A stretch of DNA of 64,000 nucleotides from Geodermatophilus tzadiensis (GTDB lineage: Bacteria > Actinomycetota > Actinomycetes > Mycobacteriales > Geodermatophilaceae), in assembly GCF_003002915.1 (NCBI RefSeq), contig NZ_PVTG01000006.1, positions 62,001 to 126,000 of the forward strand, read 5' to 3'. Shown here piece by piece: positions 43,259 through 64,000 of the stretch. Below the pieces are notes generated by a model. That model was not told where the DNA came from, ran no database searches, and saw nothing but the letters and a program-made list of their open reading frames with translations. Numbering within the stretch: the stretch's first letter is position 1; each line of letters starts with the position of its first letter. Both the position numbers and the translations under genes were made by a program.

Positions 43259-44761
43259 GTGCTGCTGGACCACCGAGGTGCCGGACGGGCCACCACCCGC
43301 CGCCCACCCATGCCGCGACCGGCGCCCGACGACCTGACGGGCGCCCTGCCCGCCGCGGTCCCCGCGACCCGGCCCTGGGCCGGCCGGTACACCGCCGGGC
43401 TGGTGACCCTCGACGTCGCCGTCGCCGCGGCGGCCGCCAGCGCCGTGCTGCTGGCCCGCCCGACGCTGCTCGCGGACGTCGCCCCGCTGGCCTGGGCGGT
43501 CGCCGTGCTGGTGGCGGCCTGGCCGCTGCTGCTCGCCGGGACCGGCGCCTACGACGAGCGGGTCCACGGCACCGGCAGCGACGAGTACCGCCGCGTCGGC
43601 CGCGCCGGCCTGCTGCTGCTCGCGCTGACCAGCACCGTGTCCTACGCCGCGCAGCTCGACCTCAGCCGCGCGCTGGTCGTGCTCGCCATCCCGTCGCTCA
43701 CCGTGCTCACCCTCGCCGGGCGCGTCGTGGCCCGCACCCACCTGCGGCAGCTGCGCGCCCAGGGCCGGTGCACCAAGCGGGTCGTCGTGGTCGGCCGCGG
43801 CGGCGCGGTCGTCGAGCTGGCCACGCGGGTGCGGCGGGAGAACTACGCCGGGCTGGAGGTGGTGGCCGCCTGCGTGACGCCGGAGAGCCGCGAGCTCGTC
43901 GCCGGGGCCCTCGGGGTGCCGGTCGGCGGCCTCGACGACGTCGCCGCGACCGCCGCCCGGCTCGGCGCCGACACCGTGGCGGTCACCTCCGCCAGCGAGA
44001 CCGCCGCGGAGTACCTGCGCCGGCTGTCCTGGCAGCTCGAGGGCACCGGGGTGGAGCTCCTCGTGGCGCCGGGCCTCATCGAGGTGGCCGGACCGCGGCT
44101 GCACATCCGCCCCTTCGAGGGCCTGCCGCTGCTGTCGGTCGAGCAGCCCCGCTTCGCCGGCTGGCGCCGGGTGGCCAAGGGCTGCGTGGACCGCGTCGCC
44201 GCCGCGCTGGCGCTGGTGGTCGTCGCGCCCGTCCTCCTCGCGCTGGCCCTCGCCGTCCGGCTGGACGGTCCCGGGCCGGTGCTCTACCGGCAGGAGCGGG
44301 TCGGGGTGAACGGTCGGCGCTTCACCATGCTGAAGTTCCGCAGCATGGTGGTCGACGCCGACCGCCGGGTCGAGGAGCTCGCCGCGCTCAACGCCTCCGA
44401 CGGGCTGCTGTTCAAGGTGCGCGCCGACCCGCGGGTCACCCGCGTCGGGCGCTGGATGCGGGCCCTGTCCCTCGACGAGCTGCCGCAGCTGCTCAACGTG
44501 CTCGGCGGCTCGATGTCCCTCGTCGGCCCGCGCCCGCCGCTGCCGCGCGAGGTGGCCCGGTACGACTCCTCGGTCAGCCGCCGGCTGCTGGTCAAGCCGG
44601 GCCTGACCGGCCTGTGGCAGATCTCGGGCCGCAGCGACCTGTCCTGGGAGGAGAGCGTGCGGCTGGACCTGCGCTACGTGGAGAACTGGTCGCTCGCGCT
44701 CGACGTGCTGATCCTCGTCAAGACCGTGCGCGCCGTCCTCAGCCGCTCCGGCGCGTACTGA
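43259..44761 (+). CDS. Exopolysaccharide polyprenyl glycosylphosphotransferase (initiating sugar transferase)
   Basis: A 500-residue WbaP/WcaJ-type enzyme that starts glycan assembly by moving sugar-1-phosphate to polyprenyl phosphate. It has four N-terminal helices, a CoA-binding/NAD-like domain (KRVVVVGRGGAVVELATRVR), another helix (AAALALVVVAPVLLALALAV) and the bacterial sugar transferase domain (RVGVNGRRFTMLKFRSMVVD, LSLDELPQLLNVLGGSMSLV, GPRPPLPREV, KPGLTGLWQISGRSDLSWEE). GTG 43259 follows GAGGGGGAGAC, a strong Shine-Dalgarno; ATG 43310 is less likely. First gene of the polysaccharide locus. Confidence 0.94.
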   Translation: MLLDHRGAGRATTRRPPMPRPAPDDLTGALPAAVPATRPWAGRYTAGLVTLDVAVAAAAASAVLLARPTLLADVAPLAWAVAVLVAAWPLLLAGTGAYDERVHGTGSDEYRRVGRAGLLLLALTSTVSYAAQLDLSRALVVLAIPSLTVLTLAGRVVARTHLRQLRAQGRCTKRVVVVGRGGAVVELATRVRRENYAGLEVVAACVTPESRELVAGALGVPVGGLDDVAATAARLGADTVAVTSASETAAEYLRRLSWQLEGTGVELLVAPGLIEVAGPRLHIRPFEGLPLLSVEQPRFAGWRRVAKGCVDRVAAALALVVVAPVLLALALAVRLDGPGPVLYRQERVGVNGRRFTMLKFRSMVVDADRRVEELAALNASDGLLFKVRADPRVTRVGRWMRALSLDELPQLLNVLGGSMSLVGPRPPLPREVARYDSSVSRRLLVKPGLTGLWQISGRSDLSWEESVRLDLRYVENWSLALDVLILVKTVRAVLSRSGAY

Positions 44762-48550: not shown

Positions 48551-48948
48551 GGCGTGACTCCTCGGTCGGCGGACCGGGGTCGTCCCCCCGGGACGGCGGA
48601 GGCCGCGCACCGGGCGCCGTGGTGCCGGGACGGACCCCCGCGGGCAGTCTCACCGAGCACCGCAGGCGGTGGGGCGCCGCAGCCGGCCGGCCTCCCCCCA
48701 AGGCGGGAGACCGGCCCCCCGGCACCTCCGCCCGACCGGTCCGGGCGCAGGGCCCGGACCGGTCCGGCGGTCACCCTCCGCAGTCATCGGCCGGTGTCGC
48801 GTCTCCCTCCTGAGGGGGAGAAACCGCAGTTCGTCACTGGATCGTGGGACGTCGTCACCCTGGTCGCTGCTCCGTCGTCACTCATAGTGTCGGCCGGCCG
48901 CCCCGTGGACCGGGGTGGGCGCTTCGACGAACGACTGGGGGAACGATC
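48551..48948. other. Intergenic region between divergent genes
   Basis: A 398-nt gap with no convincing gene. It holds a 13-bp hairpin (48734-48764), a smaller CTCCC/GGGGGAG hairpin near 48806, and a CACTCATAGTG element near 48880 that could include the -10 box of the long surface-protein gene. The start ATG 48949 is preceded by GGGGGAACGATC. Confidence 0.55.
48734..48764. terminator. 13-bp perfect hairpin
   Basis: GACCGGTCCGGGC pairs with GCCCGGACCGGTC around GCAGG. It lies between two divergent promoters, so it may be a regulatory site rather than a terminator. Confidence 0.45.
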
Positions 48949-51900
48949 ATGCCCGCACGCGTGGCGACCACGCTGAGGAAGGCGCTGGCCGGCGTCCTGG
49001 GCCTGCTGCTGGTGGCCGGGGTCCTGGCCCTGGCCGTGCCGACGGCGGCCCGGGCCGACAGCGCCCCCCTGGACCCGGCGGACCCGGCCACGCCGACCAC
49101 CGTCACCGCCGACCCGCTGCCCACGGTGCAGGTCGACGGGATCGTCTGGTCGCAGGTGGTGGTCGGGAACACCGTCTACGCGGCGGGCAAGTTCGACAAC
49201 GCCCGCCCGGCCGGCGCGGCACCGGGGACCCAGCTGACGCCCCGGGGCAACCTGCTGGCCTACGACATCCGCACCGGCGAGCTCGTCCCGTCGTTCGCCC
49301 CCAGCCTCAACGCGCAGGCGCTGGTCGTCGCGGCCTCGCCGGACGGCTCGCGGGTCTACGTCGGCGGCGACTTCACCACGGCCGACGGGCAGACCCGCCA
49401 GCGCGTCGCGGCCTACAGCACCGCCACCGGCCGGCTGGTCGCCGAGTTCCGCCCGCCGGTCGCCGGCCAGGTGCGCGCCATCGCCGCCACCGACACGACC
49501 GTCTACCTCGGCGGGGACATCTCCGCGGTGGGGTCGGCCGGCCGCAACCGGCTCGCCGCGGTCTCGGCGGCCACCGGTGCGCTCCTGCCGTGGGCCCCGC
49601 AGCCGGGGACCGGCTCCACCGCCGGCAACGTGCTGCCGAACGACGACCCCCGCAACCGGGAGACCAGCAACGCGGTGATGGCCCTCGTGGTGGCCGGCCC
49701 CGACGGCCAGGTGGTCGCGGCCGGCCGCTTCGACGGCCTCAACGGGGTGCCGGCGACCGGGGTGGGTGCCCTCGACGGGGTCACCGGTGCCACCCGGCCC
49801 TTCGAGATCGGCCGGCTGGTCACCAACCAGGGCGTCAACTCCGGGATCTGGAGCCTGAGCACGGACGGGACCAACGTCTACGGCACCGGCTACGACTTCT
49901 ACGGGCCGGGCAACCTCGAGGGCTCCTTCGCCGTGACCGCCGACGGCGGCACGGTGCGCTGGATCAACGACTGCCGTGGCGACAGCTTCGCCGCCGTCGC
50001 CGTCAACGGCGCGGTCTACATGGCCGGCCACCCGCACGAGTGCAGCCAGATCGGCGGCTACCCCGAGCAGAACCCGCGGGTGCACCAGTTCGGCACCGCG
50101 CTGAGCCTCGCCGCGACCGGCAAGGTCGGCCCGTACGGGCTGCGCAACAACAACCTCGTCGGCCGGCCGGCGCCGTCCCTGCTGGCCTGGTTCCCGACCT
50201 TCTCCCCGGGTGCGGTCAGCGGTGCCTCGCAGGCCACCTGGCACGTGACCGGCACCAGCCGGTACGTGGTCTACGGCGGCGAGTTCCCCACGGTCAACGG
50301 CAGCACCCAGCAGGGCCTGGTGCGCTTCGCCGCCCGCGACCTCGCGCCGAACGCGGTCGCGCCGCGTGCCGTCGGCACCTTCGCGCCGACGGTGACCGCG
50401 GTCTCCGGCGCGGTCCGGGTCTCCTGGCCGGCGGCGGTCGACCGCGACAACGAGCACCTCACCTACCGCGTGCACCGCGACAGCGACACCGCCGCGCCGG
50501 TGTGCCAGGTCACCCGCCCGTCGACGTTCTGGAGGGCGCCGACCTACGCCTGCCTGGACCGCGGCGCCGCGGCCGGCTCGCACCGCTACCTGGTGACCGC
50601 GACCGACCCGGCGGGCAACCGGCTGGCCTCGGCGTGGGTCACGGCCGAGGTCCCGGCGGGTGCCACCAGCAGCCCCCGGCCCTACGCGCAGCAGGTCGCC
50701 GCGGACGGCGCGGTCGGCCACTGGTCGCTCGGCGAGGCCGCCGGCGCCACCGCGTTCGACGCCGCCGGCGCCCAGGACATGACGGTCAACGCCGGGGTGA
50801 CCCGGGGTCAGGCCGGCGCGATCGGCGGCGACCGGGACACCGCCGTCGCCACCAACGGCAGCAGCACCGGCTTCCTGGCCACCCGGACGGCGGTCCCCAG
50901 CCCGGACGTCTTCTCCGTGGAGGCCTGGTTCCGGACGACGTCGACCCGGGGCGGGAAGATCGTCGGCTTCGGCAACGCCGCCACCGGGTCGAGCACCGCC
51001 TACGACCGGCACGTCTTCCTGGACCCGATGGGCCGGGTGTACTTCGGCGTGCACAACGGGGCCGCCGCGGAGGTCCGCAGCGACACCGCGTACAACGACG
51101 GCCGCTGGCACCACGTCGTCGGGTCGCTGAGCCCGCGCGGCCTGGAGATGTACGTGGACGGCGTCCGCATCGGGATCCGCGGCGACGTCACCACCGCGAC
51201 GTCCTACGCCGGCTACTGGCGCGTCGGCGGCGACACCAGCTGGTGGGTCGGCTCCGACTGGTTCAACGGCCAGGTCGACGAGGTGGCGCTGTATCCCCAG
51301 GCCCTGTCGGCCCAGCAGATCGGCACGCACCTCACCCTCGGCCGGGGCGCGAACCTCGCGCCGACGGCGGCCGTCGACGTGGCCGTGAGCGACCTGACCG
51401 CCACGGTGAACGGCACGTCGTCCGCCGACGTCGACGGCACGGTGGCCGGGTACGCGTGGGAGTTCGGGGACGGTGTCACCGGCACCGGGCCGACGGCGTC
51501 GCACACCTACGCGGCGGCCGGCACCTACACCGTCCGGCTGACCGTGACCGACGACGACGGCGCCACCGGGACGACCACCCGCGTGGTGACCGTCACCCAG
51601 GCCCCGGCCGGGGCGGGCTCGGTCGCGTCGGACTCCTTCGAGCGCAGCGTCGTCTCGGGGTGGGGATCGGCCGACCGCGGCGGCGCCTGGACCGTCGGCG
51701 GGACCACGGCGGTGACCGGTGGCGCCGGTCAGCTCACCGCGGCGGCGGGGCGCAACGCCTCGGCCCTGCTGGGCGGCGTCTCGCGCAGCGACGTGGCGGT
51801 GCAGGCGGCCCTCACGCTGCCGCAGACGGCGACCGGGGGCGGCACGTACCTCAGCGTGGCCACCCGGCGGGTGGGCACGACCGACTACCGGGTGCTGCTG

Positions 51901-54150
51901 CGCTACCGCGGCGACGGCCAGGCCGAGGTCATGCTGGCCCGGCACGTCGACGGGGTCGAGACCGTCCTCACCGGCACGGTGCTGCCCGGCGGCTACACGC
52001 CGGGGACCTCGCTCACGGTGCGCTTCGAGACCGAGGGCACCGGCACGACGACGCTGCGCACCAAGGTGTGGGCCACCGGCACCGCCGAGCCCGCGGCCTG
52101 GCTGCTGACCCGCACCGACGCCACCGCGGCGCTGCAGCGGCCGGGTGCGCTGTACCTCTACGAGTACGTCTCGGGCAGCGCGACCCGGACCTCTGCCGTG
52201 CGGGTCGACGACCTGCGGGCGGAGCCGGCGGGCACGGTCGTGCCCCAGCCCCCGGCGAACACGGCTCCGACGGCGGCGTTCACCGCCGCCACGACAGGGC
52301 TGGCGGTGGCCGTGGACGGCACGTCCTCCGCCGACGCCGACGGCACGGTGGCCGGGTACGCGTGGGAGTTCGGGGACGGTGCCACCGGCACCGGGGCCAC
52401 GGCGTCGCACACCTACGCGGCGGCCGGCACCTACACCGTCCGGCTGACCGTGACCGACGACGACGGCGCCACCGGCACGACCACCCGCGGGGTGACCGTC
52501 ACCGCCCCCGCACCGCAGCCCCAGCCGCAGCCGGGCGACACGGCGGTCGCGGCGGACTCCTTCGAGCGCAGCGTCGTCTCGGGGTGGGGATCGGCCGACC
52601 GCGGCGGCGCCTGGACCGCCGGCGGGACCACGGCGGTGACCGGCGGCGCCGGCCAGCTCACCGCGGCGGCGGGGCGCAACGCCTCGGCGCTGCTGGGCGG
52701 GCTGTCCCAGGCAGATGCGGCCGTCCAGGCCGAGCTGGTCCTCCCGCAGGTCGCCACCGGTGGCGGCACCTACGTCAGCGTGGCCGCCCGCCGGGTGGGC
52801 ACGAGTGACTACCGGGTGCTGCTGCGCTTCCGCGGCGACGGGCAGGCCGAGGTGATGCTCGCCCGCTACGTCGACGGGGTGGAGACCATCCTCACCGGCA
52901 CGGTGCTGCCCGGCGGGTACACGCCGGGAGGCTCGCTCACGGTCCGGTTCGAGACCGAGGGCACCGGGACGACGACGCTGCGGGCCAAGCTGTGGGCCAC
53001 CGGCACCGCCGAGCCCGCGGCCTGGCTGCTGACCCGCACCGACGCCACGGCGGCGCTGCAGCGGCCGGGCGCGCTGTACCTGTACGAGTACGTCTCGGGC
53101 AGCGCGACCCGGACCTCCACGGTCTCGGTCGACGACCTGTGGGTCGGCCCCGCCGGCACCGTGCCGGGCGTGCCGGCCGGGCCGGGAGGCCCTGAGCAGC
53201 CGGCCAACCAGGCGCCGACGGCGGCGTTCACCGCCGCCGCGACGGGACTGGCGGTGGCGGTGGACGCCGCCGGCTCGGCCGACGCCGACGGCCGGGTGGT
53301 CGCCCAGGCGTGGGAGTTCGGGGACGGTGCCACCGGCACCGGGCCGACGGCGTCGCACACCTACGCGGCGGCCGGCACCTACACCGTCCGGCTGACCGTG
53401 ACCGACGACGACGGCGCCACCGGCACGACCACCCGCGCGGTGACCGTCACCGCCCCCGCACCGCAGCCCCAGCCGGAGCCGCAGCCGGAGCCGCAGCCGC
53501 AGCCGGGTGACCAGGCGCTGGCCGCCGACGCCTTCGGCCGCGAGCTGGCGGCGGGCTGGGGCACCGCCGACCGGGGTGGGGAGTGGACCGTCGGCGGGAC
53601 CACGTCGGTCACCGGCGGCGCCGGTCAGCTGGTCGCGGCGGCGGGGCGCAACGCGTCGGCCCTGCTGGCCGGGGTGTCGCAGGCCGACGTGGCGGTGCAG
53701 GCGAGGGTCACCCTGCCGCAGACGGCGACCGGCGGCGGCACCTACGTCAGCCTGGCCGCCCGGCGGGTGGGCACGAGCGACCACCGGGTGCTGCTGCGCT
53801 ACCGCGGCGACGGGCAGGCCGAGGTGATGCTCGCCCGCTACGTCGACGGGGTGGAGACGATCCTGGCCGGGACGGTGCTGCCCGGCGGCTACGCGCCGGG
53901 GACGTCGCTCACCGTCCGCTTTGAGACCGCGGGCACCGGCACGACGACGCTGCGCACCAAGCTGTGGGCGACCGGGACCGCGGAGCCGGCGGCCTGGCTG
54001 GTGACCGCGACGGACGCCACGGCGGCGCTGCAGCGGCCGGGTGCGGTCTACCTGTACGAGTACGTCTCGGGCAGCGCGACCGCCCCGTCGACCGTCCGCG
54101 TCGACGACCTGTGGGTGGGGCCCGCCGGCACCGCTCCGCCGGCCGGCTGA
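48949..54150 (+). CDS. Large exported PKD/LamG repeat surface protein
   Basis: A 1733-residue protein with a signal peptide (LAGVLGLLLVAGVLALAVPT). A propeller-like region (~60-470) has recurring VYVGGDF/VYLGGDI/VVAAGRFDGLNG blades. An FN3-like part (~475-585) and a LamG/concanavalin-like domain (~590-800; WSLGEAAGATAFDAAG, VEAWFRTTS, WHHVVGSLSPRGLEMYVDGV, FNGQVDEVALYPQALS) follow. Then come three alternating PKD domains (~803, ~1103, ~1419) and three ~210-residue jelly-roll-like modules (~890, ~1200, ~1523; SFERSVVSGWGSADRGGAWT). There is no sortase motif or C-terminal TM. It probably binds or builds the glycan matrix. Confidence 0.88.
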   Translation: MPARVATTLRKALAGVLGLLLVAGVLALAVPTAARADSAPLDPADPATPTTVTADPLPTVQVDGIVWSQVVVGNTVYAAGKFDNARPAGAAPGTQLTPRGNLLAYDIRTGELVPSFAPSLNAQALVVAASPDGSRVYVGGDFTTADGQTRQRVAAYSTATGRLVAEFRPPVAGQVRAIAATDTTVYLGGDISAVGSAGRNRLAAVSAATGALLPWAPQPGTGSTAGNVLPNDDPRNRETSNAVMALVVAGPDGQVVAAGRFDGLNGVPATGVGALDGVTGATRPFEIGRLVTNQGVNSGIWSLSTDGTNVYGTGYDFYGPGNLEGSFAVTADGGTVRWINDCRGDSFAAVAVNGAVYMAGHPHECSQIGGYPEQNPRVHQFGTALSLAATGKVGPYGLRNNNLVGRPAPSLLAWFPTFSPGAVSGASQATWHVTGTSRYVVYGGEFPTVNGSTQQGLVRFAARDLAPNAVAPRAVGTFAPTVTAVSGAVRVSWPAAVDRDNEHLTYRVHRDSDTAAPVCQVTRPSTFWRAPTYACLDRGAAAGSHRYLVTATDPAGNRLASAWVTAEVPAGATSSPRPYAQQVAADGAVGHWSLGEAAGATAFDAAGAQDMTVNAGVTRGQAGAIGGDRDTAVATNGSSTGFLATRTAVPSPDVFSVEAWFRTTSTRGGKIVGFGNAATGSSTAYDRHVFLDPMGRVYFGVHNGAAAEVRSDTAYNDGRWHHVVGSLSPRGLEMYVDGVRIGIRGDVTTATSYAGYWRVGGDTSWWVGSDWFNGQVDEVALYPQALSAQQIGTHLTLGRGANLAPTAAVDVAVSDLTATVNGTSSADVDGTVAGYAWEFGDGVTGTGPTASHTYAAAGTYTVRLTVTDDDGATGTTTRVVTVTQAPAGAGSVASDSFERSVVSGWGSADRGGAWTVGGTTAVTGGAGQLTAAAGRNASALLGGVSRSDVAVQAALTLPQTATGGGTYLSVATRRVGTTDYRVLLRYRGDGQAEVMLARHVDGVETVLTGTVLPGGYTPGTSLTVRFETEGTGTTTLRTKVWATGTAEPAAWLLTRTDATAALQRPGALYLYEYVSGSATRTSAVRVDDLRAEPAGTVVPQPPANTAPTAAFTAATTGLAVAVDGTSSADADGTVAGYAWEFGDGATGTGATASHTYAAAGTYTVRLTVTDDDGATGTTTRGVTVTAPAPQPQPQPGDTAVAADSFERSVVSGWGSADRGGAWTAGGTTAVTGGAGQLTAAAGRNASALLGGLSQADAAVQAELVLPQVATGGGTYVSVAARRVGTSDYRVLLRFRGDGQAEVMLARYVDGVETILTGTVLPGGYTPGGSLTVRFETEGTGTTTLRAKLWATGTAEPAAWLLTRTDATAALQRPGALYLYEYVSGSATRTSTVSVDDLWVGPAGTVPGVPAGPGGPEQPANQAPTAAFTAAATGLAVAVDAAGSADADGRVVAQAWEFGDGATGTGPTASHTYAAAGTYTVRLTVTDDDGATGTTTRAVTVTAPAPQPQPEPQPEPQPQPGDQALAADAFGRELAAGWGTADRGGEWTVGGTTSVTGGAGQLVAAAGRNASALLAGVSQADVAVQARVTLPQTATGGGTYVSLAARRVGTSDHRVLLRYRGDGQAEVMLARYVDGVETILAGTVLPGGYAPGTSLTVRFETAGTGTTTLRTKLWATGTAEPAAWLVTATDATAALQRPGAVYLYEYVSGSATAPSTVRVDDLWVGPAGTAPPAG
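51357..52257 (+). repeat. PKD + jelly-roll-like module, unit 1 of the long surface protein
   Basis: First of three ~0.9-kb tandem units. Long stretches are identical at DNA level to unit 2 (about 52258-53202) and unit 3 (about 53203-54150), for example the EFGDG-to-TTTR part of each PKD domain. This implies recent duplication or conversion. Confidence 0.8.
52258..53202 (+). repeat. PKD + jelly-roll-like module, unit 2
   Basis: The SFERSVVSGWGSADRGGAWT start is encoded almost identically to unit 1. The linker between PKD and module is PQPQPQPGDT. Confidence 0.8.
53203..54150 (+). repeat. PKD + jelly-roll-like module, unit 3
   Basis: The linker is expanded to a PQPEPQPEPQPQPGD run and the module start has drifted to AFGRELAAGWGTADRGGEWT. 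The PKD coding part remains nearly identical to unit 2. Confidence 0.8.
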
Positions 54151-54155
54151 GCGGA

Positions 54156-54171
54156 CACCCCAACTCGGGTG
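54156..54171. promoter_or_regulatory. CACCC-CAACTC-GGGTG inverted repeat
   Basis: A short inverted repeat 5 nt after the surface-protein stop, ~55 nt before the next start. It is related in arms to the elements at 15443 and 44775. Confidence 0.3.
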
Positions 54172-54174
54172 AGC

Positions 54175-54200
54175 GGCGCCGGCGGATCCACGCCGGCGCC
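54175..54200 (+). terminator. GGCGCCGGC/GCCGGCGCC hairpin
   Basis: A perfect 9-bp stem with an 8-nt loop between the long surface protein and the glycosyltransferase fusion gene. Confidence 0.5.
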
Positions 54201-54224
54201 GCACCGGGCCGGGACCATCGCGGG

Positions 54225-56378
54225 GTGACCGTCGAAGCCCCCCTCGTGGCCGAGGCCGGAGCGGCCCCGCCCACCGCCGCGCGGTGGGCGGGGCCGCTCG
54301 GCGTCGTCGTCGTCAACTACGGCTCGTCGGCGCTGCTGCGGCGCAACCTCGTCCCCCTCGGCCGCACCGGCCTGCCGGTCGTGGTCGTGGACAACCTCTC
54401 CACGCCCGAGGAACGGCGGGCCGTGACCGGGCTGGCCGCCGAGGAGGGGTGGGAGCTCGTGGCCCTCCCGGACAACCGGGGCTTCGGCGCGGGCGTCAAC
54501 GCCGGCGTCGCCGCGGCCCGCGCGCAGGGCTGCACCACCGTCCTGCTGCTCAACCCCGACGCCGTCGTGGAGCGCGACGTGGTCGACCGGCTCGCCGAGC
54601 GCAGCCTGGCCGACCCCCTGGCGCTGCTGAGCCCGCGGATCGTCGACTCCGCCGGTGGCGTCTACTTCGCCGGCTCGCGACTGCGGCTGCGCGACGGGCG
54701 CACCGGACGGCGCGCCGCCGACCCGGCCGCACCGGCGACCGTGCGCGAGTGGCTGACCGGCGCCTGCCTGGTCGTGCACGGCACGCTGTTCGACCTGCTC
54801 GGCGGCCTCGACGACTCCTACTTCCTCTACTGGGAGGACGTCGACCTCAGCTACCGCGCCCAGCTCGCCGGCGGCCGGACGGTCCTGTGCGACGACCTGG
54901 TCGCGGTGCACGACGAGGGCGGCACGCAGCACCGGCGCGGGACGGCCAAGTCCGACCTCTACTACTACTGGAACTGCCGCAACCGGCTGGCGTTCGCCGC
55001 CCGGCACCTCGGCCGCCGGGCGATGCTCGGCTGGCTGCTGCGCACCCCCGCGGCCGGCTGGGAGGTCGTGCTCCGGGGCGGGCGGCGGCAGCTGCTGCAC
55101 TCGCCCCGGCCCCTCCTGGCCGCGGCGCGCGGCTCGCTGGCCGGCGCCGCGCTCGTCGTCCGCGCGGTCCTCCGACCCGCCGCCCGCCACCGCCGCCCGC
55201 CGGTGCTCGTCGTCCACCCGGGCGCCGACCTCTACGGAGCCGACCGGATGCTGCTGGAGTCGGTCGACGCGCTGCGCTCGGAGTTCGACGTCACGGTCGC
55301 CGTGCCGGGCCCCGGGCCGCTGGTCGGCGCGCTCGAGGCCCGCGGGGTGCGGGTGGTGCGGTGCCCCATGCCGGTGCTGCGCAACGCCGCGCTGCGCCCG
55401 CGCGGGGCGGTGCGGCTGGCCGCCGACGCCGTCCGCGGCGTGCTCCCGGCGCTGCGGCTGGTCCGCCGGCACGGCGCGGCGGGCGTCTACGTCAACACCG
55501 TCACCGTCCCGACGTGGCCGCTGCTGGCCCGCCTGGCCCGGCGGCCCTGCGTCGTCCACGTCCACGAGGCCGAGCGCTCGCTGCCCGGCCCGCTCCGCCG
55601 CGCCCTCGCGCTGTCCCCGGCGCTGGCCACGCGCGTCCTGGTCAACAGCGGCTTCACGCACGAGGTGCTCACCGAGGTCGCGCCGCGGCTGCACCGGCGC
55701 AGCACCGTCCTGCACAACGCCGTCCGCGGACCGGCCGCCCCGGTCCCGGCCCGGCCGCGACCGCACGACCCGGTGCGGCTGCTGTTCGTCGGCCGGCTCT
55801 CGCCGCGCAAGGGGCCGCAGGTCGCGGTGGCGGCCCTCGCCGACCTGGTGGCCCGCGGCGTCGACGCCCGGCTGGACCTGGTCGGTTCGGTGTTCCCCGG
55901 CTACGAGTGGTTCGAGGCCGAGCTCCGCGCGCAGGTCGTGGCCGCCGGGGTGGCCGACCGGGTGGCGTTCCTCGGCTTCCGGCCCGACGTGGCCCCGGCC
56001 CTCGCGGCCGCGGACGTCGTGCTGGTGCCCTCGGTGGCCGAGGAGTCGTTCGGCAACGCCGCGGTCGAGGCGGTCCTCGCCGCCCGCCCGCTGGTGGTCA
56101 GCGACTCCAGCGGGCTGCGGGAGGCGGTGGCCGGCTTCGGCAGCGTGCAGGTCGTCGCGCCGGGCCGGCCCGCGGCCTGGGCCGACGCCGTCGAGCGGCT
56201 GCTCGCCGACTGGCCGCGGGTCCGCGACCTGGCGGTGGCCGACGCGGCCGAGGCCCGGCGCCGGCACGCGCCCGAGCGGTACCGGGCCGGGCTGGTCGCG
56301 ACGGTGGCCGCGCTGACCGGCGCGCCCGGCCGGCCGTCGCCCGCCCGGGCCGTTCCCGGACCGAGGAGGAGCGCATGA
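54225..56378 (+). CDS. Bifunctional GT2-GT4 glycosyltransferase fusion
   Basis: A 717-residue protein. Residues ~20-300 form a WbbL-like GT2 (rhamnosyltransferase type) domain (GVVVVNYGSSALLRRNLVPL, LPDNRGFGAGVNAGVAAARA, LLLNPDAVVERDVVDRL, YFLYWEDVDLSYRAQLAGGR). Residues ~322-700 form a GT4 GT-B domain (VLVVHPGADLYGADRMLLES, VRLLFVGRLSPRKGPQVAVA, EESFGNAAVEAVLAARPLVV). Both catalytic sets look intact, so it may add two sugars in sequence. GTG 54225. Its stop overlaps the next glycosyltransferase (ATGA). Confidence 0.9.
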   Translation: MTVEAPLVAEAGAAPPTAARWAGPLGVVVVNYGSSALLRRNLVPLGRTGLPVVVVDNLSTPEERRAVTGLAAEEGWELVALPDNRGFGAGVNAGVAAARAQGCTTVLLLNPDAVVERDVVDRLAERSLADPLALLSPRIVDSAGGVYFAGSRLRLRDGRTGRRAADPAAPATVREWLTGACLVVHGTLFDLLGGLDDSYFLYWEDVDLSYRAQLAGGRTVLCDDLVAVHDEGGTQHRRGTAKSDLYYYWNCRNRLAFAARHLGRRAMLGWLLRTPAAGWEVVLRGGRRQLLHSPRPLLAAARGSLAGAALVVRAVLRPAARHRRPPVLVVHPGADLYGADRMLLESVDALRSEFDVTVAVPGPGPLVGALEARGVRVVRCPMPVLRNAALRPRGAVRLAADAVRGVLPALRLVRRHGAAGVYVNTVTVPTWPLLARLARRPCVVHVHEAERSLPGPLRRALALSPALATRVLVNSGFTHEVLTEVAPRLHRRSTVLHNAVRGPAAPVPARPRPHDPVRLLFVGRLSPRKGPQVAVAALADLVARGVDARLDLVGSVFPGYEWFEAELRAQVVAAGVADRVAFLGFRPDVAPALAAADVVLVPSVAEESFGNAAVEAVLAARPLVVSDSSGLREAVAGFGSVQVVAPGRPAAWADAVERLLADWPRVRDLAVADAAEARRRHAPERYRAGLVATVAALTGAPGRPSPARAVPGPRRSA

Positions 56379-59475: not shown

Positions 59476-60999
59476 ATGACCGCCACCACCCGGCCGGTGC
59501 ACGACGGCGCGGACGACGGCACGGACGACGGTGCGGACGGCGGCGCGCTCGGGCGCCGGGCGGCCCGCGGGGTCCTCGTCGCCCTGGGCGGACAGGGGCT
59601 GCGGATCGGTGTCCAGGTCCTCTCCGTGGTCCTGCTCTCCCGCCTGCTGGGGCCGACGGACTACGGCCTGCTGGCGATGGTCATGGCGGTCATCGGGGTC
59701 GCCGACGTCTTCCGCGACCTCGGCCTGTCGACGGCGGCGGTGCAGGCGCGGACCCTCTCGGCGGCGCAGCGCAGCAACCTCTTCTGGATCAACACCGGCA
59801 CCGGCCTGCTGCTGAGCGTGCTGGCCGTGGGTTCCGCCCCGCTGGTGCAGGCCCTCTACGGCCGTCCGGAGCTCGGCGCAATGACCCAGGCGCTGGCCGC
59901 GGTCTTCCTGCTCAACGGCATCGCCACCCAGTACCGGGCCGACCTGACCCGGCGGCTGTGCTTCGGCCGGCTCGCCGTCGTGGACGTGGCCGCACCGGCG
60001 GCCGGGCTGGTGGCGGGACTGGCCCTGGCCGGCTCGGGCGCCGGGTACTGGGCCCTGGTCGGCCAGCAGCTGGTGCAGTACCTGGTGATGACGGTCCTCG
60101 TCGTGGCCTCGGGCCGGTGGGTGCCCGGCCGGCCGGACCGGCGGACGCCCATGGACGGCCTGCTGCGCTTCGGCTGGCACATGGTCGGCATCGAGCTGCT
60201 CGGGTACGCCAGCCGCAACGCCGACTCCCTCCTCATCGGCACCCGCTCCGGTGCCGCCGCGCTGGGCCTCTACAACCGGGCCTACCAGCTGCTGATGGCC
60301 CCGCTCGGGCAGGTGCGCGCGCCCACGACGCAGGTCGCGCTCCCCGTGCTGGCCCGGTTGCAGGACGACCCCCTTCGGTGGGCGGGCTACGTCCGCCGCG
60401 GCCAGCAGGCCCTCGGCTACACGCTGGTCGCCGGCCTCGCGCTCGTGCTGGGCGCGGCGGACCCGGTCACCGCCGTGTTCCTCGGCGACCGCTGGGACGG
60501 CGTGGCCCCGGTGCTGCGGCTCATGGCCGTGGGCGGCATCTGCCAGACGTTGGCCTTCGTCGGCTACTGGGTCTACCTGTCCCGCGGGCTGACGTCCGCC
60601 CTGATCCGCTACTCGCTGTTCGAGACCGCCGTGCGGCTGGTCTGCATCGTGGTCGGCAGCGGCCACGGGGTCGTGGGGGTCGCCGCGGGCTTCGCGGTCG
60701 CGCCCGCCCTGACCTGGCCGGTGTCGCTGTGGTGGCTGTCCCGGCTCGCGCCGATCCCGCTGCGGCAGCTGGTCACCGGCGCCCTGCGGATCCTCGCGCT
60801 GGCGGCCGTCGTCGTCGGGTGCTCGTGGACGGCGGCCCTCGGCGTGGCCGGGATCCCGGCGCCGCTGGTCCTGCTCACCGCCGTGGCCGCGGGCGTCGCC
60901 GGCTACGCCGCGCTCCTGGCCGTGGCACCGCCGGTCCGGCGCGACCTGCGCGCCGTGGTCGACGCCGTCCGCACCGGCCTCGGCCGCCGGCCGGCCTGA
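59476..60999 (+). CDS. Wzx-type flippase (MOP superfamily)
   Basis: A 507-residue membrane protein with about 12-14 helices that moves polyprenyl-linked glycan units across the membrane. It has GRRAARGVLVALGGQGLRIG, VLLSRLLGPTDYGLLAMVMA, RDLGLSTAAVQARTLSAAQR, RNADSLLIGTRSGAAALGLY and YNRAYQLLMAPLGQVRAPTT. This spelling is the RfbX/lipopolysaccharide-flippase group. An Asp-rich ~25-residue N-terminal tail precedes TM1. ATG 59476. Convergent with the Wzz/Wzy fusion gene. Confidence 0.92.
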   Translation: MTATTRPVHDGADDGTDDGADGGALGRRAARGVLVALGGQGLRIGVQVLSVVLLSRLLGPTDYGLLAMVMAVIGVADVFRDLGLSTAAVQARTLSAAQRSNLFWINTGTGLLLSVLAVGSAPLVQALYGRPELGAMTQALAAVFLLNGIATQYRADLTRRLCFGRLAVVDVAAPAAGLVAGLALAGSGAGYWALVGQQLVQYLVMTVLVVASGRWVPGRPDRRTPMDGLLRFGWHMVGIELLGYASRNADSLLIGTRSGAAALGLYNRAYQLLMAPLGQVRAPTTQVALPVLARLQDDPLRWAGYVRRGQQALGYTLVAGLALVLGAADPVTAVFLGDRWDGVAPVLRLMAVGGICQTLAFVGYWVYLSRGLTSALIRYSLFETAVRLVCIVVGSGHGVVGVAAGFAVAPALTWPVSLWWLSRLAPIPLRQLVTGALRILALAAVVVGCSWTAALGVAGIPAPLVLLTAVAAGVAGYAALLAVAPPVRRDLRAVVDAVRTGLGRRPA

Positions 61000-61030: not shown

Positions 61031-63265
61031 TCAGCCCGCCGGCGTCCCCACCGGGACGCGCCCGCGCACCGGACCCGGCTCGGCGACGGCCGGGGGCTGC
61101 GCCACCGGGGGAGCGGCCGCGGCCCGGGGCAGCAGCGCCAGCCCCACGGCCAGGGTCACCGCGTCCAGGTCCGTGGGCAGCGGGCCGAAGGCGAGGAACC
61201 ACAGCGCGGTGGGCACCAGGAAGCACAGCAGGGCCGGGGCCTCGCGGCGGGCGAGCCGCACGGCGAGGGCGGCGACGAGCAGCCCGGCCATCGTGAGGCC
61301 GAGGAGGAGCCCGAGCGGGCCGAGGTTGGACCACAGGTCGGCGACCACGGAGTGCAGCTCGAACCGGCCGTCCAGCAGGTAGTGCTGCAGGTAGCCCTCG
61401 GCCGTGGGGTCGTTCACCGCCGCGATGCCGGACGCGCCGAGCTGGACGTCGCCGGGGGAGGGGACGGTCCCCAGCCCGAACCCGAGGGGCCGGGACTGCA
61501 CGAGCGACCACGTGGCGGTCCACTCGGGCCGCCCGCCGACCAGCAGGGAGCCGCTCTGGGCGACCTGCGCCGCGCTGCGGGCCTGCAGGCCCGCCCCGAG
61601 GGCGCCGGAGACCAGCAGCTCGGAGAGCAGGGCGTAGGCGGCCGTGCCGCCCACGAGCAGCAGGACGGCGCCGCGTCCCCAGCGCACCGCCCGGCCCGCG
61701 ACCCCGGGCCGCGCCTGCCAGACGACCGCGGCGGCCGCGGCCAGGCACAGGGCGAAGGCGCTGCGCGCGTCGTTGAGGACGTTGAGCAGGCCCATCCCCC
61801 CGAGGACGGCGAGGGAGGCCCCGGGGCGCCGGCGGCCGACCACCAGGGACAGCAGGACGACGGTGAGCGGGAACGACAGCTCGAACTTGACCGGGTTGTC
61901 GGAGACGGGCACCCGGAGCAGGCCGTGCACGAGCTGCCCGACGCCGAAGGCCACCCCGACGGCGCGCAGGGGGAGCACCGTCCGGGCCCACAGCAGCAGG
62001 CCGACGGTGCCGAGGCCGGTCAGCACGGCGAACCCGGTGGCCGCGGCCTCGAGGGGGGCGACGGCGTGGTCGACCGCCGACCACCGCGCGAGGAGCAGCC
62101 CGGAGAGCAGTCCCAGGCCGGTGAGGACGGCGAGGGGGACCCCGCCGCGGTAGCGCCGGAGAGCCGGTCCCCACAGGGGCAGCAGGAGCGCGGTGACCAC
62201 CAGCCCCGACGTCGCGGCGAGCGGGAGCGAGAGGTCGGCGCCGGCGACCGCGAGGGCGAGCAGCGCGCACCAGCCGGTCGGCGACGTCCAGGGCCGGACC
62301 GCTGCCCGCGGCTCCACCCGGTCCAGGAGGGCGGCGAGCCGGCCGCCGCGCGCGTGCCCGTCCACGACCACGCCCCGGACCGCCGCGCCGCCGTCCCGGA
62401 CGGCGGCGAGGTCCGCGTCGAGCTGCCGGACCGTCGTCCGTCCCGCCTCGGCGACCACGACGACGCCGCCCGGGCTCCGGCCCGGGCCGTCCACGACGTC
62501 GAGCACGCCACCGGCGGCCAGCTCGCGGGTCAGCCCGGCCCGGTGCGGCGAGCTCCCGACCAGGGCGACCGGCCGGCCGCCGGCGCCGGATCCCAGGAGG
62601 GTGCGCAGGCGGTCGACGCGGACGGCCCGGCGCGCCGCGCGCCGGCGGCCGCGGCCCCCCGGCGCGGCCAGGACGGGAGCGCCGGGAACCTGGGCCGCGG
62701 TGTGCACCCGCGGGCGGGCTCCCTCGAGCAGCCCGGCTCCCAGGGCCGCGAGCGCCGCTCCGCCGGCCGTCCCCAGGGCGGCCAGGGTCGTCCCGTCCCG
62801 GGACGCCGGGACCCGCGGCGGGGTCGCCGGGGCGACGGTGGCCACGGTGAGCAGGGGGGCGCCGTCCGCGTCCCGGTAGGTCGTGCGGGCCCGGTCACGG
62901 ACGGCGTCGGCGACCGCGTCGGCCCGCGCGGCGGCCAGCTGCGGGGTGGCTGCGCCGACCGAGACGCGCAGGACGGAGGTGTCCTCCACCAGCTCGGCGC
63001 GGACGGTCGTGCCCTCGGCCCCCGCCCCGTCCGGGGCAGAGCGGGCGAGCTCGGCCAGGGTGGGCAGGACCTCCTCGCGGAGCAGCGCGGCGTACACGGC
63101 GTCCTCCCGGTCGTCGACCCGGGCGACCCCCACGTACAGCTCCGTGCCGGCCTCGTAGGTGGCCGCGGGGGCCAGACCGGGGCCGAGCAGCGCGCCCACC
63201 AGTCCGGCCAGCACCACCCACGGCCAGCGACGGACGACCGCGGCGGCGTAGGCCGTCAGCGTCAT
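61031..63265 (-). CDS. Wzz - degenerate BY-kinase-like - Wzy (O-antigen polymerase) fusion protein
   Basis: A 744-residue protein. Residues 1-185 look like a Wzz/chain-length determinant domain: TM at ~12-32, extracytoplasmic part (ATYEAGTELYVGVARVDDRE, LRVSVGAATPQLAAARADAV), second TM at ~160-182. Residues ~215-305 resemble a BY-kinase: RPVALVGSSPHRAGLTREL has no GKS Walker A, and GGVVVVAEAGRTTVRQLDAD with GVVVDG resembles its C-terminal half. Residues ~330-720 form a ten-helix Wzy/ligase-like domain (GGRPEWTATWSLVQSRPLGF, GFGLGT). ATG 63265. It may control and perform polymerisation in one chain. Confidence 0.8.
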   Translation of the reverse strand: MTLTAYAAAVVRRWPWVVLAGLVGALLGPGLAPAATYEAGTELYVGVARVDDREDAVYAALLREEVLPTLAELARSAPDGAGAEGTTVRAELVEDTSVLRVSVGAATPQLAAARADAVADAVRDRARTTYRDADGAPLLTVATVAPATPPRVPASRDGTTLAALGTAGGAALAALGAGLLEGARPRVHTAAQVPGAPVLAAPGGRGRRRAARRAVRVDRLRTLLGSGAGGRPVALVGSSPHRAGLTRELAAGGVLDVVDGPGRSPGGVVVVAEAGRTTVRQLDADLAAVRDGGAAVRGVVVDGHARGGRLAALLDRVEPRAAVRPWTSPTGWCALLALAVAGADLSLPLAATSGLVVTALLLPLWGPALRRYRGGVPLAVLTGLGLLSGLLLARWSAVDHAVAPLEAAATGFAVLTGLGTVGLLLWARTVLPLRAVGVAFGVGQLVHGLLRVPVSDNPVKFELSFPLTVVLLSLVVGRRRPGASLAVLGGMGLLNVLNDARSAFALCLAAAAAVVWQARPGVAGRAVRWGRGAVLLLVGGTAAYALLSELLVSGALGAGLQARSAAQVAQSGSLLVGGRPEWTATWSLVQSRPLGFGLGTVPSPGDVQLGASGIAAVNDPTAEGYLQHYLLDGRFELHSVVADLWSNLGPLGLLLGLTMAGLLVAALAVRLARREAPALLCFLVPTALWFLAFGPLPTDLDAVTLAVGLALLPRAAAAPPVAQPPAVAEPGPVRGRVPVGTPAG

Positions 63266-63489: not shown

Positions 63490-64000
63490 ATGGGCAGCGC
63501 GGTCGTGGTCGGGGCGGTCCGGAGGCGGTGGCGCTGGGTCGTCGCCGCGGTCTGCGTCTGCCTGCTCGGGGCGGTGCTGCACACCCAGGTCGCGGCCAAG
63601 AGCTACCGGGCGACGGCCGAGGTGTTCTTCACCCTGCAGTACGGCGACTCCGCCTCGGACCTGGTCCAGGGGGCCACGTACACCCGCAACCAGGTCGCCT
63701 CCTTCGCCCGGCTGGCCACCACCCCCGCCGTCCTCGGCCCGGTGGTCGACGACCTCGGCCTGGACGTCCCGGTCTCCGAGCTCGCCGGCCGCGTGCAGGC
63801 CGCGGCGCCCGTGGACACGGTCCTCGTGGAGATCACCGTCACCGAGTCCTCGGCGACCGGCAGCGCCCGGGTGGCCAACGCCGTGGCCGCCTCCCTGGCC
63901 GACGTGGTGGAGGACCTCGCGCCCGAGGACGCCGAGGGCCGGCCCACCATCGCCGCCGCGACGGTGACGCCCGCGGAGGAACCGCCCGGCCAGGCCTCCC
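63490..64000 (+). CDS. Wzz-type chain-length determinant / possible BY-kinase, partial
   Basis: The first 170 residues of a protein cut by the window end. It has a basic N-terminus, TM (RWVVAAVCVCLLGAVLHTQV), then a periplasmic Wzz domain (YRATAEVFFTLQYGDSASDL, YTRNQVASFARLATTPAVLG, LAGRVQAAAPVDTVLVEITV, ARVANAVAASLADVVEDLAP). In actinobacteria such proteins often continue into a second TM and a cytoplasmic BY-kinase domain. ATG 63490 follows GGAGGGGGAGTC, a strong Shine-Dalgarno. Confidence 0.88.
   Translation, partial: MGSAVVVGAVRRRWRWVVAAVCVCLLGAVLHTQVAAKSYRATAEVFFTLQYGDSASDLVQGATYTRNQVASFARLATTPAVLGPVVDDLGLDVPVSELAGRVQAAAPVDTVLVEITVTESSATGSARVANAVAASLADVVEDLAPEDAEGRPTIAAATVTPAEEPPGQAS

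Follow-up and report, generated by a model that had tools for sequence, protein, structure and literature searches.

Can one bacterial protein carry a chain-length regulator, a kinase-like segment, and a polysaccharide polymerase in a single chain, and what would such a protein do? The question is raised by a gene near the end of the window, i.e., the whole stretch of 64,000 nucleotides from Geodermatophilus tzadiensis analyzed here. We report that the fusion of three parts in one protein, a Wzz-type domain, a pseudokinase, and a Wzy/WaaL-type polymerase of the sort that links sugar units into surface polysaccharides, is real and occurs in several soil actinobacteria.

One open frame in nine genomes

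A sequence-only reading of the window had described a single 744-residue frame as a covalent fusion. The frame runs on the minus strand from an ATG at 63265 to a stop at 61031-61033; it has 744 codons and zero internal stops, and its third-position GC is 0.95-1.00 over the full length, in agreement with that reading (Table 1). The same domain order, which the reading had suggested seeking in other actinobacteria, was found in nine genomes in total: the window's own, Modestobacter sp. VKM Ac-2985, Modestobacter sp. VKM Ac-2977, Blastococcus sp. LR1, Blastococcus aurantiacus, Geodermatophilus sabuli, and three genomes labeled G012, G019, and G020. All nine have the same build in one frame, the G020 copy being cut at its 5' end by a contig edge. 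Six of the fusion loci came from a scan of a genome-contig collection, two of them being G020 (L002) and G025 (L007), and the rest came from the genomes of relatives. Modestobacter, Blastococcus, and Geodermatophilus belong to the Geodermatophilaceae, which we assume is also that of the window. An artifact of sequencing or assembly joining two genes, a possibility raised by the sequence-only reading itself, is virtually ruled out because nine different genomes keep the part order in one open frame and the coding signal is clean across the joint.

Table 1. Features of the fusion gene and its surroundings, in window coordinates
Feature	Position	Strand	Basis
Whole fusion gene, 744 aa: Wzz-type domain, BY-pseudokinase, Wzy/WaaL-type polymerase	61031..63265	-	open frame, order kept in nine genomes
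Putative Wzz-type co-polymerase domain, residues 1-183: TM1, small periplasmic/outside domain, TM2	62717..63265	-	family profiles, hhalign, fold, hydropathy
BY-pseudokinase by fold and motif comparison, residues 184-318, ~100 residues shorter than a BY-kinase	62312..62716	-	alignment, hhalign, homologue fold, Lys/Tyr count
Predicted Wzy/WaaL-type membrane polymerase, residues 330-715	61121..62278	-	PF04932, WaaL fold match, free-standing relatives in G059 and G050
R501, invariant; candidate first diphosphate-binding Arg, role inferred	61763..61765	-	alignment
GN1 motif R-x15-GFG with invariant R579 (loop RPEW...PLGFGLG)	61469..61534	-	11/11 sequences
GN2-like motif HS-x9-GPLG with invariant H638	61310..61354	-	11/11 sequences, S or A for N
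Region of 224 bp between the divergent start codons	63266..63489	.	sequence
Start of partner gene: Wzz and active BY-kinase, 486 aa, extends past window end (L008:5491-6951)	63490..64000	+	Pfam, TIGR01007, Walker A
Wzx-type flippase	59476..60999	+	PF13440 9.4e-71, PF01943 3.4e-48
Initiating sugar-phosphate transferase, same cluster	43307..44761	+	PF02397 3.8e-67

In a tree, the fusions form one clade (9/9, support 100/100). The full fusion was found in 5 of the 43 distinct family genomes examined (G000, G012, G019, G020, and G025), and the other 38/43 are without it, so the pathway as such can do without the fusion. Outside the family, 0/74 genomes (37 + 37) gave a fusion at E up to 0.001, and a tblastn search against 72,556 Actinobacteria plasmids returned one record, with 13% coverage. 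Two of the 74 outside genomes, G059 (413 residues) and G050, encode free-standing relatives of the polymerase half, with 35% and 38% identity to the window, respectively, indicating that this half can exist alone and is joined to a co-polymerase in this family.

A pair of neighboring Wzz-pseudokinase and Wzy genes, such as that in G033, is a conceivable source of the fusion; the tree does not put the G033 pseudokinase, which sits on a long branch, beside the fusion. In G033 (L022:1423-3009), an unfused Wzz protein of 528 residues has a kinase-like part without Walker A, and the overlapping next frame looks Wzy-like by its sequence. G028 (L053:6152-9256) has an unfused Wzz with a BY-kinase from which the Walker A lysine has gone; upstream, its long frame looks non-coding. 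A similar joint was also sought in other long BY-kinase frames: the upstream parts in G022 and G028 look non-coding, and in G021 polymerase and kinase are in different frames. G005 (L012:61-2946, L027:6012-8894) has a 961-residue frame in the reverse order, i.e., a Wzy-looking membrane part followed by Wzz and a BY-kinase that retains Walker A; its cluster shows no other BY-kinase in the 16 kb examined. Pfam gave no match for the membrane part. This G005 fusion may stem from a frame error, because the coding signal dips at the joint, the corresponding genes lie side by side in different frames in G007 and G021, and they are fused in only one genome of 21.

Three parts by profile and fold

As a single query, the window fusion protein gave one chance match against Pfam and no match against NCBIfam or PDB sequences; all three parts are visible only in the family alignment of the nine genomes. 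The Wzz-like N-terminus, the BY-kinase-like center without the Walker A lysine, and the Wzy/ligase-like C-terminus that the sequence-only reading had proposed all hold up at this family level. The fold model of the whole protein has a mean pLDDT of 67. Mean pairwise identity by part, over 8/9 fusions, is 0.43 for the Wzz part, 0.44 for the pseudokinase, 0.41 for the linker, 0.56 for the polymerase, and 0.67 for the active loop; L010, in which ~35 N-terminal residues are missing at a contig end, was left out of these means and of the Mantel test described below.

For the N-terminal part, at a loose threshold (E up to 10), PF02706 (Wzz) matches 6/9 fusion members with a best E of 1.1e-5, and TIGR01006 (polysaccharide chain-length determinant) matches 8/9 with a best E of 1.5e-19. 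At curated cut-offs, the window protein matches neither PF02706 nor TIGR01006; among the matches listed with bits, only L006 passes the PF02706 cut-off (26.1 bits against 25.5), and the TIGR01006 scores of the fusions are far under the cut-off of 296 bits. Profile-profile alignment of the fusion with Wzz-BY-kinases from the same bacterial family (hhalign) gave an E of 8.8e-31, and residues 1-188 of the model match KpsE, Wzz, and Wzc with Z of ~10-12. The model, the hydropathy, and the hhalign result agree on two predicted transmembrane helices around an alpha/beta outside domain, as in a co-polymerase. Fold and profile together support a Wzz-type assignment of this part, though under the curated cut-offs.

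The central part was compared with BY-kinases in several ways. By hhalign, residues 1-332 align with Wzz-BY-kinases over 340 columns with 99.9% probability and the kinase-like domain alone reaches 96.3% against BY-kinases, in contrast to 0.4% for the polymerase half used as a control. With an E of 10 as the limit, the family profile matched six PDB sequences; four are BY-kinases, the best at 0.011. A first fold search with the whole model left the center tied between BY-kinases (Z 9.0) and phosphoribosyltransferases (Z 8.9). The kinase-like domain of the G012 homologue was then folded alone, the window sequence being in the alignment, and gave a mean pLDDT of 77; this is the homologue's domain and not the window's own. 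Every one of its 14 Foldseek matches at an E of 0.001 or lower is a BY-kinase, as is each of the best 18 matches in structural alignment (Z 10.7-15.3), the next standing at 7.2. The idea that the center is a chance Rossmann-like linker was rejected on these 18 BY-kinase matches at the top.

The motifs of an active BY-kinase or PCP-2a protein, i.e., Walker A, A', and B and a Tyr-rich C-terminal tail, were sought in the fusions and are absent. Walker A is lacking in 9/9, and the alignment shows that ~100 residues holding Walker A' and B are missing. The only lysine of the whole window protein is K460 (position via the alignment), so that the protein has no Walker A lysine; there is no Tyr between residues 130 and 372, and the polymerase stands in place of the Tyr tail. 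Strict motif comparison places the fusion outside the active BY-kinase/PCP-2a family; by sequence and model, its central part is a predicted kinase fold without kinase motifs, i.e., a BY-pseudokinase.

For the C-terminal part, PF04932 matches 3/9 fusion members by hmmscan; in the genome scan, the window gene scored an E of 2.4e-6 and 28.9 bits, below the curated cut-off of 31.7. The model of this part has a polytopic WaaL-like fold, and the whole model finds its closest structural match in WaaL 7TPG (Z 14.2, 332 residues, rmsd 5.5, 12% identity), although the loop 544-637 is of low confidence. Helical proteins without kinship can reach Z of ~13, so the WaaL match is support and not proof. The loop W...PLGFGLGT noted in the sequence-only reading is present, and R501, R579, and H638 are invariant in the alignment of the fusions. 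The GN1 motif of type-B Wzy, RX(11-24)GXG (PMC12502699), occurs in 11/11 sequences; the strict GN2 motif HNX9GX(2-4)G does not, the His and the Gly spacing being kept in 11/11 and the N replaced by S or A. The correspondence with type-B Wzy is one of motif and spacing, not of residue-level alignment. Fold and profile thus support a Wzy/WaaL-type part, though under the PF04932 cut-off, with a predicted polymerase activity. If type B holds, the linkage formed would more likely be beta.

A partner kinase gene in head-to-head orientation

The second, divergently encoded Wzz-type protein of the sequence-only reading turned out to be a complete Wzz-BY-kinase starting with an ATG at 63490, which is recognized by Pfam, matches NCBIfam TIGR01007 with an E of 6.4e-53, and has an intact Walker A in the alignment. 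An active Wzz-BY-kinase gene stands head-to-head with the fusion in 8/8 loci with enough flank, and Walker A is intact in 8/8 of these partners. They form one clade in the tree (8/8, 100/100), separate from the remaining family BY-kinases sampled for it. A Mantel test on part-to-part distances over 8 loci gave r of 0.87-0.94. Such a correlation between fusion and partner is expected for a pair passed on together and may be plain linkage, as the Mantel test does not separate functional pairing from shared ancestry.

The cluster contains a sugar-phosphate transferase, glycosyltransferases, Wzx, the Wzz-BY-kinase, and a low-molecular-weight tyrosine phosphatase, and no polytopic polymerase candidate other than the fusion lies in the part of it covered by the window. 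Wzx lies near the fusion in 7/9 loci within the flank examined, with none in L006 and L007. Two further proteins of the window are recorded here. A 1768-residue protein with PKD and laminin-G-like domains (48844-54150) lies inside the polysaccharide cluster, and a 742-residue stretch (54150-56378) holds two glycosyltransferase domains in one frame, GT2-like and then GT4-like. The other PF04932 protein of the window genome is on contig C25 (G000, L029:1957-8474); the cluster there, a second one in this genome, encodes a Wzx-like protein, a BY-kinase, and a free-standing Wzy and is of ordinary unfused build.

A possible role for the fusion

Our preferred reading, to which we give about an even chance, is that the fusion acts as the polymerase of a Wzx/Wzy pathway, brings a co-polymerase subunit along in the same chain, and would join a ring made mostly of the partner kinase. 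The points that count for this reading are the domain evidence, the nine-genome clade, the head-to-head partner in 8/8 loci, with its own clade and intact Walker A, a pseudokinase as conserved as the Wzz part, the lack of a second polymerase candidate in the window's part of the cluster, the invariant R501, R579, and H638, and the published ratio and timer described below. The Wzz part would insert its two helices and small outside domain into the co-polymerase ring, and these helices would return the chain to the cytoplasm, where the pseudokinase and the start of the polymerase part would be located. The pseudokinase, with no ATP-binding motifs and no Tyr tail to phosphorylate, would sit in the cytoplasmic kinase ring, and the C-terminal polymerase would thereby be placed in the membrane cavity of the ring. 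With a single fusion subunit in each ring, there would be one Wzy per ring, and the make-and-break cycle of the ring, driven by the partner kinase and the phosphatase, would set the chain length.

The numbers behind this reading come from WzzE-WzyE, for which a ratio of 8:1, a membrane cavity ~57 Å wide, and a Wzy of ~50 Å were found (PMC10030265), in an enterobacterial PCP-1 system and not a kinase-bearing actinobacterial one. Because the cavity is reported there to hold one Wzy, one fusion per ring would fix the stoichiometry. Eight fused polymerases would not fit one such cavity, and a mixed ring of ~7 active kinase subunits and 1 fusion is the simplest reading. According to the same source, the ring of Wzc systems comes apart on phosphorylation, which is likened to a timer. 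It is possible, and we propose it only tentatively, that the fusion is a built-in seed: with 1 fusion and ~7 active kinase subunits, there would be one polymerase per ring by covalent design, and the tail-less pseudokinase may lower the number of phosphorylatable subunits and so tune the timer and the chain length.

The main rival is that the fusion makes its own oligomer without the partner kinase, as a phosphorylation-independent co-polymerase and polymerase of the EcpK kind, the divergent kinase acting on another step; we consider this unlikely. The EcpK and HfsB pseudokinases have been proposed as scaffolds without active kinases, the EcpK authors arguing that the pseudokinases there are independent of active BY-kinases (PMC12004946), which counts against the mixed ring, and the fusion itself is without any phosphorylation motif. 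Against a fusion-only oligomer, however, the active Wzz-BY-kinase is head-to-head in every locus that could be judged and is inherited with the fusion, and eight polymerases would probably not fit one cavity of the dimensions given in PMC10030265.

It seems improbable that the Wzz-pseudokinase part is a mere anchor or a relic of co-expression on an ordinary Wzy, the link having no regulatory role. The free-standing relatives of the polymerase half and its better conservation (0.56 vs 0.43-0.44) speak for a relic, but the Wzz and the pseudokinase part are both retained in 9/9 genomes and have kept their length and fold, as a relic would not be expected to.

A ligase of the WaaL kind, which would move finished chains to an acceptor, is quite improbable as the C-terminal enzyme. 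Its best fold match is WaaL, but the window's part of the cluster is without another polymerase candidate and, to our knowledge, Actinobacteria have no lipid A acceptor. The fusion has His, as in O-antigen ligases, at a place where most polymerase families of the clan have Asp or Glu (PMC10920833), but the His motif GN2 is also described in Gram-positive type-B Wzy (PMC12502699).

Comparison with known systems

In the open-licence literature, we did not find a printed report of a natural fusion of co-polymerase, pseudokinase, and Wzy. The fusion resembles PCP-2a proteins of the Wzc type, in which Wzz and BY-kinase are in one chain, with residues 1-332 as the shared region, but it is without Walker A, A', or B or a Tyr tail, and the polymerase occupies the position of the tail. 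With the BY-pseudokinase co-polymerases EcpK/EpsV, HfsB/HfsA, and the fused SMc01795, it has in common a motif-less kinase fold joined to, or working with, a Wzz-type part; in contrast to the fusion, these systems, as described in PMC12004946, have no polymerase in them, and the fusion also adjoins an active Wzz-BY-kinase gene. It shares the WaaL fold, GN1, and two invariant Arg and one His with Wzy polymerases and O-antigen ligases (PF04932, WaaL 7TPG, type-B Wzy), which are normally separate proteins; its GN2 has S or A for N, and the window score is below the PF04932 cut-off.

As in WzzE-WzyE, polymerase and co-polymerase are expected in one complex, but there the association is non-covalent, with eight co-polymerase chains per polymerase (PMC10030265), whereas in the fusion Wzy is covalently continuous with one co-polymerase chain. 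How Wzy and co-polymerase fit and in what ratio is an open question in that source, where the 8:1 complex came from tagged proteins, its native function is unconfirmed, and an atomic view is called for. When the join is natural and covalent, it is settled which termini are neighbors and how many polymerases come with each such co-polymerase subunit; the fusion would be a ready-made construct for structural studies and would directly test whether a ring has one polymerase, and its layout could reveal the number of polymerases per regulator ring. It also shows that a pseudokinase can persist in a co-polymerase beside an active sister kinase. The sequence-only reading had suggested that a covalent fusion with an inactive kinase-like sensor would be a new way to control polymerization; sensing and control by this part are a possibility, and the novelty stands for the link to Wzy and not for the inactive kinase. 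Wzz-BY-kinases, BY-pseudokinases in co-polymerases (PMC12004946), and Wzy are known already, and what is new in the literature covered is the covalent join to Wzy.
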